Both the position numbers and the translations under genes were made by a program. Below are positions 4,284 through 20,433 of a DNA stretch of 22,516 nt, piece after piece. The notes beneath the pieces were generated by a model. The model was not told the origin of the DNA, made no database searches, and saw nothing but the letters and a program-made list of their open reading frames with translations. Source of the DNA: a virus; the IMG/VR virus record IMGVR_UViG_3300013004_002107, positions 1 through 22,516 of that record. One strand, written 5' to 3'. Positions within the stretch are counted from its first letter, which is position 1; each line of letters starts with the position of its first letter.

Positions 4284-5462
4284 ATGCCTACATTTTATAA
4301 CTTTACGGAAAATGGAGTTGTCTATAGTTTTGATGATGTCTTTGTGCCTGCTGATTTGTTTCGTGATGGGAACTTATTCACTTGGGGTGCTGGAGGTACT
4401 GGAATACTTGGAAATGCAGCAACAACCGATAGATCCACTCCAGTCACCACATCTGCTGGAGGAACCAACTGGAAACAAGTCAGTGGTGGGGCCGCGCATA
4501 CAGCAGCAATAAAAACCGATGGAACTTTATGGGTTTGGGGTTCGGGAACTTATGGAAGACTTGGAAATGCATCAACAACCAATAGATCCACTCCAGTCAC
4601 CACATTTGCTGGAGGAACCAACTGGAAACAGGTAAGTGCTGGAAATGGTTTGACAGCAGCAATCAAGACCGATGGAACCTTATGGACTTGGGGTTATGGT
4701 GCTAATGGAAGACTTGGAAACGCAGCAACAACCGATAGATCCACTCCAGTCACCACATCTGCTGGAGGAACCAACTGGAAACAGGTAAGTGCTGGAAATG
4801 GTTTGACAGCAGCAATCAAGACCGATGGAACTTTATGGGTTTGGGGTAATAATGCTAGTGGACAACTTGGAAATGCTGGCACAACTAGTAGATCCACTCC
4901 AGTCACCACATTTGCTGGAGGAACCAACTGGAAACAAGTGAGTTCTGGATTTGAGTTTACAGCAGCAATCAAGACCGATGGAACTCTTTGGCTTTGGGGT
5001 AAAGGATCTAGTGGTCAACTTGGAAACAATAGTAATGGCGATATATCTACTCCAGTCACCACATTCGCTGGAGGAACCAACTGGAAACAAGTGGGTGCTG
5101 CTGGATACTCTCCAGCAGCAATCAAAACCGATGGAACTCTATGGGTTTGGGGGTTTTCTTTTAGTGGAAGACTTGGAACTGGTGAGCCGCCATTTACCAC
5201 TAAATTCACACCAGTCACCACATTCGCTGGAGGAACCAATTGGAAACAAGTCAGTTCTGGATTTAATCACACAACAGCAATCAAGACCGATGGAACCTTA
5301 TGGACTTGGGGTTATGGTGCTAATGGAAGACTTGGAAACGCAGCAACAACTGATGTATCCACTCCAGTCACCACATTTGCCGGAGGAACCAACTGGAAAC
5401 AAGTGAGTTCTGGAGATAGTGCTCATACAGCAGCACTCACCTACCAAGACCCAGGCATCTAA
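4284..5462 (+). CDS. RCC1-repeat beta-propeller protein, complete seven-unit gene
   Basis: The 392-residue protein has a short N-terminal segment (MPTFYNFTENGVVYSFDDVF, then VPADLFRDG) followed by seven repeats ending in TNWKQV. This is the number of blades needed for one closed RCC1-type propeller. Each repeat reads roughly AAIKTDGTLW-WG-LGN-STPVTT-AGGTNWKQV, and the C-terminus ends in LTYQDPGI. No signal peptide or membrane segment is seen. The N-terminal segment before the propeller resembles attachment sequences of phage structural or appendage proteins, so a virion or host-contact role is likely but unproven. AGAGG at 4273-4277 is a plausible ribosome binding site. The stop codon is embedded in the late box at 5459-5465. 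The repeats are very close in DNA sequence to those of the partial RCC1 gene at the left edge. Confidence 0.85.
   Translation: MPTFYNFTENGVVYSFDDVFVPADLFRDGNLFTWGAGGTGILGNAATTDRSTPVTTSAGGTNWKQVSGGAAHTAAIKTDGTLWVWGSGTYGRLGNASTTNRSTPVTTFAGGTNWKQVSAGNGLTAAIKTDGTLWTWGYGANGRLGNAATTDRSTPVTTSAGGTNWKQVSAGNGLTAAIKTDGTLWVWGNNASGQLGNAGTTSRSTPVTTFAGGTNWKQVSSGFEFTAAIKTDGTLWLWGKGSSGQLGNNSNGDISTPVTTFAGGTNWKQVGAAGYSPAAIKTDGTLWVWGFSFSGRLGTGEPPFTTKFTPVTTFAGGTNWKQVSSGFNHTTAIKTDGTLWTWGYGANGRLGNAATTDVSTPVTTFAGGTNWKQVSSGDSAHTAALTYQDPGI
4608..4831 (+). repeat. 71-bp identical direct repeat, 153-bp offset, in RCC1 gene
   Basis: Positions 4608-4678 and 4761-4831 are identical over 71 bp, offset by 153 bp (51 codons, one blade). 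Other blades share shorter identical tracts; for instance, the text around 4682-4732 is nearly repeated at 5301-5350. This exceeds what protein conservation would require and suggests blade duplication or gene conversion. Confidence 0.85.
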
Positions 5463-18002: not shown

Positions 18003-18011
18003 ATATTGTAT

Positions 18012-18056
18012 CGTTCATCTGGAATAATCCAGACGGAAGTAAGCCGACGCGGAACG
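18012..18056 (+). promoter_or_regulatory. Glutamine-riboswitch-like element, copy 1
   Basis: CGTTC (18012-18016) pairs with GAACG (18052-18056) as P1. Inside is a perfect hairpin, TCTGGA-ATAA-TCCAGA (18018-18033), followed by CGGAAGTAAG. The order CGTTCA, hairpin, GGAAGTA, GGAACG matches my recollection of the cyanobacterial glnA RNA (glutamine riboswitch) consensus. It could also be an upstream module of one longer structure with copy 2. Confidence 0.6.
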
Positions 18057-18059
18057 GAT

Positions 18060-18110
18060 CGTTCATTCGCTATTCGCAAATAGCGAACGCAAACGCCGAC
18101 TGAAGGAACG
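18060..18110 (+). promoter_or_regulatory. Glutamine-riboswitch-like element, copy 2 (Downstream-peptide type)
   Basis: CGTTC (18060-18064) pairs with GAACG (18106-18110). A perfect 9-bp hairpin (TTCGCTATT with AATAGCGAA, loop CGCA, 18066-18087) is followed by CGCAAACGCC and CTGAAGGAACGC. This order fits the Downstream-peptide RNA (glutamine-II riboswitch), which is known from marine cyanobacteria and cyanophages upstream of short ORFs. Here a 44-codon ORF begins 32 nt later. The consensus is from memory and was not aligned by a covariance model. Confidence 0.72.
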
Positions 18111-18142
18111 CTCTTTAACCTAAAAACTAAGGAGAAAACCTA

Positions 18143-18277
18143 ATGTCACAAGTCGTATATCGTGGTGTCTCTTATGACACCGAAGTTCGTCGCCAGCAAC
18201 AACAGCAGGCGCAACAGCAACCCCAACAGTATAATGAGACTTATCGTGGGGTTAAGTTTGTAAAGGAGGCGAAGTGA
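18143..18277 (+). CDS. Riboswitch-controlled small Gln-rich peptide (DUF4278-like), 44 aa
   Basis: The frame encodes 44 residues with two copies of a Y-R-G-V motif: VVYRGVSYD near the start and ETYRGVKFV near the end. They are separated by a Gln-rich linker with 11 Q in 13 positions (residues 17-29). The YRG-x-x-Y/F motif resembles DUF4278, a short cyanobacterial domain. AAGGAG at 18129-18134 lies 8 nt before the ATG. The gene sits directly behind the glutamine-riboswitch-like leader, so expression should respond to glutamine, a nitrogen-status signal. The molecular role is unknown. Its end overlaps the next tiny gene by one base. Confidence 0.75.
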   Translation: MSQVVYRGVSYDTEVRRQQQQQAQQQPQQYNETYRGVKFVKEAK

Positions 18278-18375
18278 TGAAAAAACTCAACTTCCTACAA
18301 CTTATCAAAGAACAAAAACAAAAAGAACAGCGTCGTCATTTAGCACAATTAGCACAACTAATCGGAGCAAAATAA
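18277..18375 (+). CDS. Small basic peptide, 32 aa
   Basis: ATG 18277 overlaps the TGA of the preceding peptide and is preceded by AAGGAGG (18263-18269), the strongest ribosome binding site of this region. The product (MKKLNFLQLIKEQKQKEQRR, then HLAQLAQLIGAK) is basic and likely forms one amphipathic helix. No family is recognised. The strong ribosome binding site and the TAATG coupling to the next gene support real translation. Confidence 0.6.
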   Translation: MKKLNFLQLIKEQKQKEQRRHLAQLAQLIGAK

Positions 18376-18470: not shown

Positions 18471-18502
18471 AAAGAGAGGATTGACAAGTCCTCTCTTTTT
18501 TT
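18471..18502 (+). terminator. Rho-independent terminator
   Basis: AAAGAGAGGA (18471-18480) pairs perfectly with TCCTCTCTTT (18489-18498) around an 8-nt loop. The T-run extends to 18502. The loop is TTGACAAG, so the -35 box of the next promoter lies in the hairpin loop. Confidence 0.88.
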
Positions 18503-18509
18503 GTATAAT
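18481..18509 (+). promoter_or_regulatory. Perfect consensus sigma70 promoter overlapping the terminator
   Basis: TTGACA (18481-18486), a spacer of exactly 17 nt and TATAAT (18504-18509) match the sigma70 consensus at all twelve positions. The -35 is in the loop of the upstream terminator, and the 3' arm plus T-run make up the spacer. The predicted start near 18516 leaves a leader of about 15 nt for the gene at 18531. It should be a strong early promoter for 18531-19594, including thyX. Confidence 0.88.
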
Positions 18510-19698: not shown

Positions 19699-20433
19699 AT
19701 GGTAAATCTTAACAGATTTTATACTTATGCTTATTTGCGTGAAGATAGAACTCCTTATTATGTCGGTAAGGGAAATGGTGATAGGGTTTATAGAAAAAGA
19801 TTAAAGGGGGTTAATGCTCCTAAAGATAAATCCAGAATAATCTTCCTGAAACAAAACATAACAGAGGAAGAAGCGTTCAAGCACGAGAAGTATATGATTG
19901 CTGTCTTTGGTAGACTAGATTTAGGAACTGGTATTCTTCATAATAGAACTGATGGTGGTGAGGGAATGTGTGGATATAAACATTCTGAGGAGACTAGAAA
20001 AAAAATTGGAGAACTTAGTAAAGGTAGAAAATGTAAAGATGAAACTAGAAAAAAATTAAGTAAAGCAAGTAAAAATAGAGTTTGTAGTGAAGAAACTAGA
20101 AAAAAATTAAGTGCATCAAAGACTGGTAAAAATAATCCTATGTATGGAAAAGAAATGAGTGAAGAACATAAACAAAAAATAAGTGAAGCAAATACGGGAA
20201 ATAGTTCTTGTTCTTGGAATAGAGGTAAAAAAATGGATCCTTTCAGTGAAGAACATCGAAGAAAACTGAGCGAATATGCAAAAAATAGAAGTGAAGAACA
20301 TAAACAAAAATTAAAAGAAACGGCAAAAGGTAGAACATCTCCTAATAAAGGTAAAAAAATGAGCGAAGAACATAAAAGAAAAATAGGTGAAGCAAATAGA
20401 AAAAGATGGGAAGAAAGAAAAAAAATAAATTAA
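19699..20433 (+). CDS. GIY-YIG homing endonuclease with NUMOD3 repeats
   Basis: The 244-residue protein has an N-terminal GIY-YIG nuclease domain (about 1-95): FYTYAYLREDRTPYYVGKG (7-25) carries the two tyrosine strands, R29 is the likely catalytic arginine, and HEKYMIAVFGR and LHNRTDGGEG follow. The rest is made of seven copies of S-E-E-H/T-K/R-x-K-L/I-x-E, for example SEETRKKIGE and SEEHKQKISE. These are NUMOD3-type DNA-binding repeats, and the tail is very basic. It resembles Seg and I-TevI-type phage enzymes that cut DNA and spread their own gene. It stands alone between thyX and the small gene at 20470, so it is free-standing rather than intron-borne. AAAGAG at 19688-19693 is the likely ribosome binding site. 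The A-rich NUMOD3 half differs in base composition from its neighbours, consistent with mobility. Confidence 0.9.
   Translation: MVNLNRFYTYAYLREDRTPYYVGKGNGDRVYRKRLKGVNAPKDKSRIIFLKQNITEEEAFKHEKYMIAVFGRLDLGTGILHNRTDGGEGMCGYKHSEETRKKIGELSKGRKCKDETRKKLSKASKNRVCSEETRKKLSASKTGKNNPMYGKEMSEEHKQKISEANTGNSSCSWNRGKKMDPFSEEHRRKLSEYAKNRSEEHKQKLKETAKGRTSPNKGKKMSEEHKRKIGEANRKRWEERKKIN

Follow-up and report, generated by a model that had tools for sequence, protein, structure and literature searches.

Do the two glutamine-riboswitch-like elements that stand one behind the other in the leader of a small viral gene work as two sensors, or do they fold into one? The stretch of DNA analysed here, hereafter the window, is a 22.5-kb virus record whose gene content, judged by eye, looks like that of a T4-like cyanophage, and its leader region comes closest, among annotated sequences, to Synechococcus phage S-SRM01 (83% identity in two pieces, 60% query coverage). 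ATCGTTCAT is found at 18010 and 18058, 48 nt apart. It is followed each time by a perfect hairpin, of 5 bp in element 1 (TCTGG/CCAGA) and 9 bp in element 2 (TTCGCTATT/AATAGCGAA), then by a purine-rich stretch (CGGAAGTA and CGCAAA, respectively), and GGAACG closes both elements (18051-18056 and 18105-18110). A sequence-only reading of this locus had proposed a tandem of separate aptamers, the second of the Downstream-peptide (glutamine-II) form, ahead of the small ORF at 18143. That a cyanophage leader with glutamine-riboswitch sequence lies upstream of this ORF is borne out; the tandem of separate aptamers and the Downstream-peptide identity of element 2 did not hold up.

The similarity of the two elements to RF01739, the Rfam glutamine-I (glnA) model, is more than chance, and the covariance-model check proposed for them gave a score for both. 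Depending on the sequence length and filtering used, RF01739 finds the elements jointly, separately, or not at all: on 126 nt the best fit is one match over both (18010-18114, 41.2 bits, E 3e-8), which exceeds the gathering score of 35; in a 381-nt stretch they appear separately with 33.1 bits (E 1.6e-5) and 26.9 bits (E 8.3e-4), both below gathering; in the 22.5-kb record they again appear separately, at 36.8 bits (E 2.1e-8) and 33.1 bits (E 2.2e-7), so that 18010-18060 alone passes the gathering score; and a filtered whole-window scan at gathering scores lists nothing. The joint alignment pairs element 1 with element 2 in P1 and places a 56-nt insert in P3. Phage S-CREM1 (OP535465.1) carries the same RNA, which RF01739 scores at 34.4 bits joined versus 33.5 and 20.4 bits separate; it has been annotated as one 99-nt glnA element (44.0 bits, Table 4 of PMC9964418), and the passages of that paper available to us do not describe a double structure.

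The idea of a mixed tandem, glnA followed by Downstream-peptide, finds little support in these searches. RF01704 (glutamine-II) has no match at E<=10 in searches that include the 381-nt stretch; its best score on the window is 15.1 bits (E 0.073, over element 2 in the 126 nt), and even the 24.6 bits that it gives on element 1 of phage S-PM2 stay, like every other RF01704 score, below the gathering score of 33. There is a grain of truth in the idea, since the inner junction strand CGCAAA lies in a junction without AGUA and GAA and resembles the glutamine-II linking strand (CGCA...). However, the long-range pair of that class would have to form within one element, where it fails here (see below), and we regard a mixed tandem as extremely improbable. 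Downstream-peptide identity of either element was rejected on the Rfam scores together with the long-range pair. Weak matches of freshwater-2 (17.3 bits, E 2.8) and PreQ1 (13.4 bits, E 4.3) in the 381-nt stretch were dismissed as chance.

We gathered relatives by DNA patterns in viral contigs and phage records, and all counts are lower bounds. At least 162 distinct composites have a compact first arm (the window included), and at least 215 have either arm up to 330 nt long (the window and five phage-record loci included). The expressions required CGTTCA-arm-CGSAAG..-H5-GGAACG for element 1 and CGTTCA-arm-ACGSA-H3-AAGGAACG for element 2, in which S is the base in ACGSA, limited to C or G, and H5, H3 and T, the base directly 3' of GGAACG, were free. 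The P1 strands are invariant across composites, partly because the patterns fixed CGTTCA and GGAACG. Alignment A1 holds all 80 distinct compact composites among the matches listed; related sequences in the composites and in the alignment are not independent of each other. The pattern GGAACGGAN{1,4}CGTTCA, run over genome contigs, was rejected as too loose: it returned at least 118 stretches, the best 80 listed being, by title, mostly from unrelated bacteria and archaea. One of the patterns used to gather the composites was loose as well.

The comparison makes it highly probable, in our judgement, that the leader forms a single RNA in which two predicted glutamine pockets exchange strands and share a P3 helix; the strand pairing (exchange and shared helix) is supported by covariation, and the two pockets are suggested by the contact bases that they keep. 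Its predicted parts, all on the plus strand, are the following, with S1, T1, S2 and T2 numbered by element.

18012-18016, plus strand: 5' strand of the outer P1 (CGTTC of element 1); RNAalifold, the MFE fold of 18012-18111 and the Rfam glnA alignment all pair it with 18106-18110
18018-18033, plus strand: P2 hairpin of element 1, all five pairs changed on both sides in A1; an ORF arm in some relatives
18034-18041, plus strand: core strand CGGAAGTA with S1 = G18036, which forms the long-range pair with C18111
18042-18049, plus strand: H5, first strand of the shared P3 (AGCCGACG), covarying with 18094-18101
18051-18056, plus strand: GGAACG of element 1, 5' side of the inner P1', in a hairpin with 18060-18064 (RNAalifold)
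18057-18059, plus strand: GAT linker, loop of the inner P1', with T1 = G18057, which forms the long-range pair with C18090
18060-18064, plus strand: 3' side of the inner P1' (CGTTC of element 2), from the MFE fold and RNAalifold
18066-18087, plus strand: P2' hairpin of element 2; an ORF arm in some relatives
18088-18093, plus strand: inner core strand CGCAAA with S2 = C18090, from alignment A1 and the T1:S2 count
18094-18101, plus strand: H3, second strand of the shared P3 (CGCCGACT), covarying with 18042-18049
18102-18110, plus strand: GAA and GGAACG, closing the outer glnA core and forming the 3' strand of the outer P1 (Rfam glnA joint alignment)

In this architecture, CGUUC and core of element 1 would combine with GAA-GGAACG of element 2 into a canonical glnA (glutamine-I) aptamer, the outer pocket, in which the inner pocket would stand in place of the P3 loop. 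That inner pocket would consist of GGAACG of element 1 with CGUUC and core of element 2, a circularly permuted aptamer with a 3-nt closing loop, and both pockets would use the one P3 helix, 18042-18049 with 18094-18101. The outer aptamer is like glutamine-I (RF01739) in its order of CGUUCA, P2, ACGGAAGUA, P3 and GAAGGAACGC and in its joint score above gathering; unlike in that class, the P3 loop is a second, permuted aptamer, and the arms of relatives may hold ORFs. AGUA and GAA are present across the two elements, one contributed by each to the outer junction and both missing from the inner one, and P3 is an inter-element helix rather than a hairpin. We take the AGUA and GAA strands of the outer junction to be the glnA loop-E strands. 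A covariance model of our own, built from 36 relatives picked by hand among the aligned rows in which S1 is C (61 of 80), with the window and the S1 = G class excluded, finds window 18012-18111 with 86.2 bits (E 5.5e-24; its E-values are rough).

The proposed exchange of strands can be followed in the long-range S:T pairs beside the pockets. Glutamine-II has such a pair, C19:G41 (PMC6698751), and glnA-type cores appear to make the same one, an analogy that the covariation bears out. In the window, element 1 has G at both S and T and element 2 has C at both, so a Watson-Crick S:T pair is impossible within either element and perfect between them; neither a glutamine-II pseudoknot with a C19:G41-type pair inside one element nor a pair of complete aptamers, with a P1 and a P3 apiece, is found. 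S1:T2 is a Watson-Crick pair in 215 of the 215 listed composites (173 C-G, 42 G-C), and T1:S2 is a standard pair in 212 of them, the exceptions being L132, L089 and L102, the last with a core mis-parsed by the expression. The inner pair switches too, with S2 = G facing T1 = C or T in L017, L057, L104, L284, L311 and L334. Within elements, S and T can pair in 173 and 172 of the 215 composites and fail to do so in 42 and 43. In A1, with its 80 rows, 100% of the crossed pairs are formed and 22 cells are changed on both sides, as high as in none of 500 shuffles; the within-element pairs form in 75%, a value reached by 212 of 500 shuffles and hence at chance level. On a quick tree of the ORFs found in the second arm of some relatives (see below), S1 changes six times, and supported branches yield three independent pairs, with T2 following S1 in all three and T1 in none (sign test p 0.25, the pairs being too few for significance); the tree of first-arm ORFs gave one such pair, in which T2 followed S1.

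These counts bear directly on the simplest alternative, two independent glutamine-I aptamers in plain tandem, each with its own P1 and acting in pseudo-cooperative control. Tandem glutamine riboswitches are known (PMC9481103), some glnA RNAs occur in tandem (Weinberg 2010, PMC2864571), and 157 doublets and four triplets of glutamine riboswitches are listed as pseudo-cooperative in the part of PMC9481103 available to us. Among the loci examined, one expression also found four independent tandems in which each aptamer has its own P3 stretch (L276, L315, L050 and L066); none of them is among the 215 listed composites. All four are viral contigs with two glnA-like aptamers each. Rfam can moreover align each window element by itself, but its joint aptamer scores highest, a P3 hairpin is absent from both elements, and the strands that would have to pair within each element pair and covary between them, which leaves a plain tandem very improbable here. 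The composites share with published doublets two adjoining glutamine aptamer sequences in one leader (PMC9481103, PMC2864571); the published ones, in the passages seen, are treated as separate aptamers, whereas here P1, P3 and the long-range pairs all run between elements. The published doublet counts may well include RNAs of this kind.

The P3 strand of each element pairs with that of the other and covaries with it, which is why we read the composite as two pockets with exchanged strands. Over the 53 distinct H5/H3 combinations among the matches listed, matched duplexes reach -4.4 versus -2.9 kcal/mol for permuted ones; none of 10,000 permutations was as good, nor any of 10,000 within H5 length classes, and the result holds with one row per H5. 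At the corresponding locus of S-SRM01, the closest annotated relative, both helix ends carry both-sided changes relative to the window. In A1 the shared helix has 55 cells changed on both sides versus 19.7 in shuffles, and its five pairs with a both-sided change are matched by 11 of 500 shuffles; its further pair types do not rise above shuffles (330 of 500), nor do those of the whole structure (72 of 500). The helix is weak in common forms: among the 162 listed composites, 43 have AGCCGACTC, and their usual strand pair gives -1.6 kcal/mol. That of the window reaches -2.8 kcal/mol and adds 0.1 kcal/mol to the nested fold (-23.3 with it, -23.2 without). Mismatches occur in A1, columns 42/103 being unpaired in 62 of 80 rows and 45/100 in 34 of 51, and RNAalifold on A1 does not include the helix.

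By itself the shared helix would fit equally well with two self-closed aptamers whose P3 strands kiss in an inter-element pseudoknot, with P1 not exchanged, and a comparable pseudoknot occurs in glutamine-II (PMC6698751). The long-range pairs, however, follow the exchanged and not the self-closed P1. The linker from GAACG to CGTTC is at least 3 nt long in all 162 of the listed composites, though 1 nt was permitted, a minimum that suits the inner P1' because a hairpin loop requires it, and with the shared helix left out the exchanged form of the window folds at -23.2 versus -18.9 kcal/mol for two self-closed P1 helices. We therefore hold kissing aptamers to be very improbable. RNAalifold, unaided, and the MFE fold of 18012-18111 agree on the outer P1, the two arms and the inner hairpin; the whole structure is paired in 93.9% of A1 cells, with 271 both-sided changes versus 82.8 in shuffles. 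The longer leader, 18010-18145, has an MFE fold that keeps the inner hairpin, forms an anti-Shine-Dalgarno stem and leaves the outer P1 open, which may be read as the unliganded state and would equally fit the absence of any outer P1.

That both junctions of the exchanged-strand RNA could hold glutamine is suggested by analogy with the crystal structure of glutamine-II, in which C1, G2, G18, C39 and G40 form ligand contacts or the platform (PMC6698751). If positions of the two classes are equivalent, as we infer, counterparts of all five are present in both pockets in 80 of 80 A1 rows, most of these letters being fixed by the search patterns. In the parts of the literature consulted (PMC6698751, PMC2864571, PMC6316151), glutamine-II also shares with the composites the CGUUCA/GGAACG pairing, the CGCA linking strand, the long-range C:G pair and a place upstream of small peptide genes; unlike glutamine-II, the composites lack a P2 hairpin with GGAACG in its loop, and the window scores far below the gathering score of RF01704. 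L-glutamine in either pocket would stabilise the shared helix and both P1 helices, and the two sites should therefore help each other. Cooperativity is thus possible for a reason other than that given in the sequence-only reading, namely one helix common to two predicted pockets.

Downstream of the RNA lies a small gene unit, whose features are, again on the plus strand:

18111-18117, plus strand: CTCTTTA, predicted anti-Shine-Dalgarno, folding with 18128-18134 at -4.7 kcal/mol; its first base is T2, the partner of S1
18128-18134, plus strand: TAAGGAG, ribosome binding site of the peptide gene, ending 8 nt before the ATG at 18143
18143-18277, plus strand: gene for a 44-aa DUF4278-like YRG peptide, the presumed regulated gene (phrog_5049, E 7.9e-14)
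18277-18375, plus strand: 32-aa ORF whose ATG shares a base with the TGA of the first ORF (phrog_545, E 0.0048)
18471-18498, plus strand: terminator-like hairpin ending the unit (consensus scan only)

Pairing of C18111 with G18036 and closure of the outer P1 would oppose the CUCUUUA/UAAGGAG stem, so that S1:T2 pairing and the anti-Shine-Dalgarno stem may compete, and once open, the stem would leave the ribosome binding site of the DUF4278-like gene accessible, as in an ON switch. Known glutamine riboswitches are described as ON switches in the passages seen of PMC6698751 and PMC6316151, and a two-site glutamine ON switch is the likely role of the window leader under this folding model. The downstream stems vary between sampled loci. 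The 18143 peptide scores 20.1 bits (E 8.7e-4) against Pfam DUF4278, below the cut-off of 25.3, and shares 38 of 43 aligned residues with its counterpart in S-SRM01; of three other downstream peptides, that of L022 passes the same cut-off with 31.1 bits, and two stay below it (14.6 and 21). The part of PMC6316151 consulted links DUF4278 with glutamine riboswitches and locates the domain in the N-terminal part of IF17, a factor that inactivates glutamine synthetase. The 32-aa ORF probably lies on the same transcript as the 18143 gene. A consensus scan listed no sigma-70-like promoter just upstream of 18010.

Many relatives carry ORFs inside the arms that are P2 hairpins in the window. Both arms are hairpins, the form of the window, in 80 of the 215 listed composites; hairpin-ORF is found in 81, ORF-hairpin in 31 and two ORFs in 23, which places an ORF in the first arm of 54 and in the second arm of 104. 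The ORFs start with ATG 3-11 nt into the arm. Their stops lie no more than 16 nt from where the arm ends in 53 of the 54 first arms (ORFs of 59-69 codons; exception L382) and in 99 of the 104 second arms (49-67 codons; exceptions L449, L286, L132, L070 and L104). In 90 of these 99 the stop falls inside the aptamer core, so that peptide ends such as DAND and DAKAD are in-frame translations of the core. Substitutions at the three codon positions, counted over disjoint pairs, number 152/87/298 (20 pairs) and 171/64/262 (24 pairs), a coding signature, and the other two forward frames are open in only one of 54 first arms and three of 104 second arms. For either arm, the stem ends of ORF-bearing forms fit each other better than they fit permuted partners (0 of 10,000 permutations as good). 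A stem of 4 bp or more is present in 32 of the 42 distinct first arms and in 86 of the 87 distinct second arms, and it extends to the A of AUG in 26 first and 77 second arms. The linker is GGAG, possibly a ribosome binding site, in 60 of the 104 listed composites with a second-arm ORF and in none of the 111 without. GGAG, AGGA or GAGG is absent from the 12 nt before CGTTCA in all 54 composites with a first-arm ORF, which speaks against ordinary initiation of these ORFs.

In phage syn9 the two embedded ORFs are the annotated genes gp196 and gp197, followed by gp198 as the downstream gene; an Rfam search of this 5.2-kb stretch at E<=1 shows no glutamine riboswitch. A sigma-70-like promoter (TTGACT, 17 nt, TATAAT, by eye) stands directly before the syn9 composite, at 2217-2245 of that locus (L503). 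Compared with PHROGs, two of five embedded peptides match phrog_6471 (1.3e-27 and 1.1e-18), two match phrog_504, one strongly (2.9e-23) and one weakly (0.015), and one has no match; neither family carries a functional annotation. By tblastn, homologs of one embedded peptide type occur in 312 of 50,697 phage records, and the RNA may therefore be widespread in cyanophages, the RNA itself having been inspected in two of those 312 (syn9 and Syn33) plus five other phage records; another type occurs in four records.

When folded, the RNA of such relatives would hide the AUG and GGAG of the embedded ORFs, and we therefore propose that embedded and downstream peptides are made under opposite glutamine conditions. 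As a tentative extension, which we rate as somewhat less than an even prospect, the sensor would wrap genes in many cyanophages, syn9 among them: glutamine, bound cooperatively through the shared-helix pockets, would silence the peptides encoded in the arms and switch on the DUF4278-type peptide downstream, and ribosomes translating the arm genes would unfold the sensor.

Composite RNAs are found in cultured cyanophages of fresh and sea water and in viral contigs. The composite pattern was absent from a partial sample of host genomes, 386 from the phylum to which a Crocosphaera MAG belongs; model R1, which could miss ORF-bearing arms, matches six of the 386 under stricter filters, all at the single-aptamer length of 50-57 nt, and has one 56-nt match (E 0.001) in genome G001 of this phylum. 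In the literature searched, mostly passages, we found no description of an exchanged P1, a shared P3 or ORF-bearing arms, parts of which Ames and Breaker 2011 or Klahn 2018 could already cover. If true, this would be a new riboswitch architecture, with two strand-exchanging aptamers of which one is naturally circularly permuted, and the shared helix would offer a direct physical route to cooperativity. It also suggests that the arms of a sensor may house protein-coding genes, in a form that Rfam did not see in the syn9 stretch. T4-like cyanophages would thereby be tied to host nitrogen sensing during infection through DUF4278-like small peptides (PMC6316151, seen in part).

Several features of the composites and of the window deserve mention in their own right. 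The arm TTCGCTATT-(2-6 nt)-AATAGCGAA (window 18066-18087) recurs almost verbatim, as either arm, in composites that otherwise differ. It lies directly 3' of CGTTCA in 45 of 46 copies in the loci examined, re-fetched records kept in, and looks like a swapped module. Elsewhere in the window, RCC1-like repeat proteins are encoded at 1-643 and 4284-5462, near many ORFs that by eye resemble glycosyl- and methyltransferases. The ORF at 19699-20433, which adjoins a ThyX-like gene, resembles a GIY-YIG homing endonuclease with NUMOD-like repeats. At 18471-18509, the loop of the terminator-like hairpin holds TTGACA, and TATAAT stands just 3' of its T run. These two boxes match the consensus at 12 of 12 bases with a spacer of 17 nt, which suggests that a terminator and a promoter overlap where the peptide unit ends.
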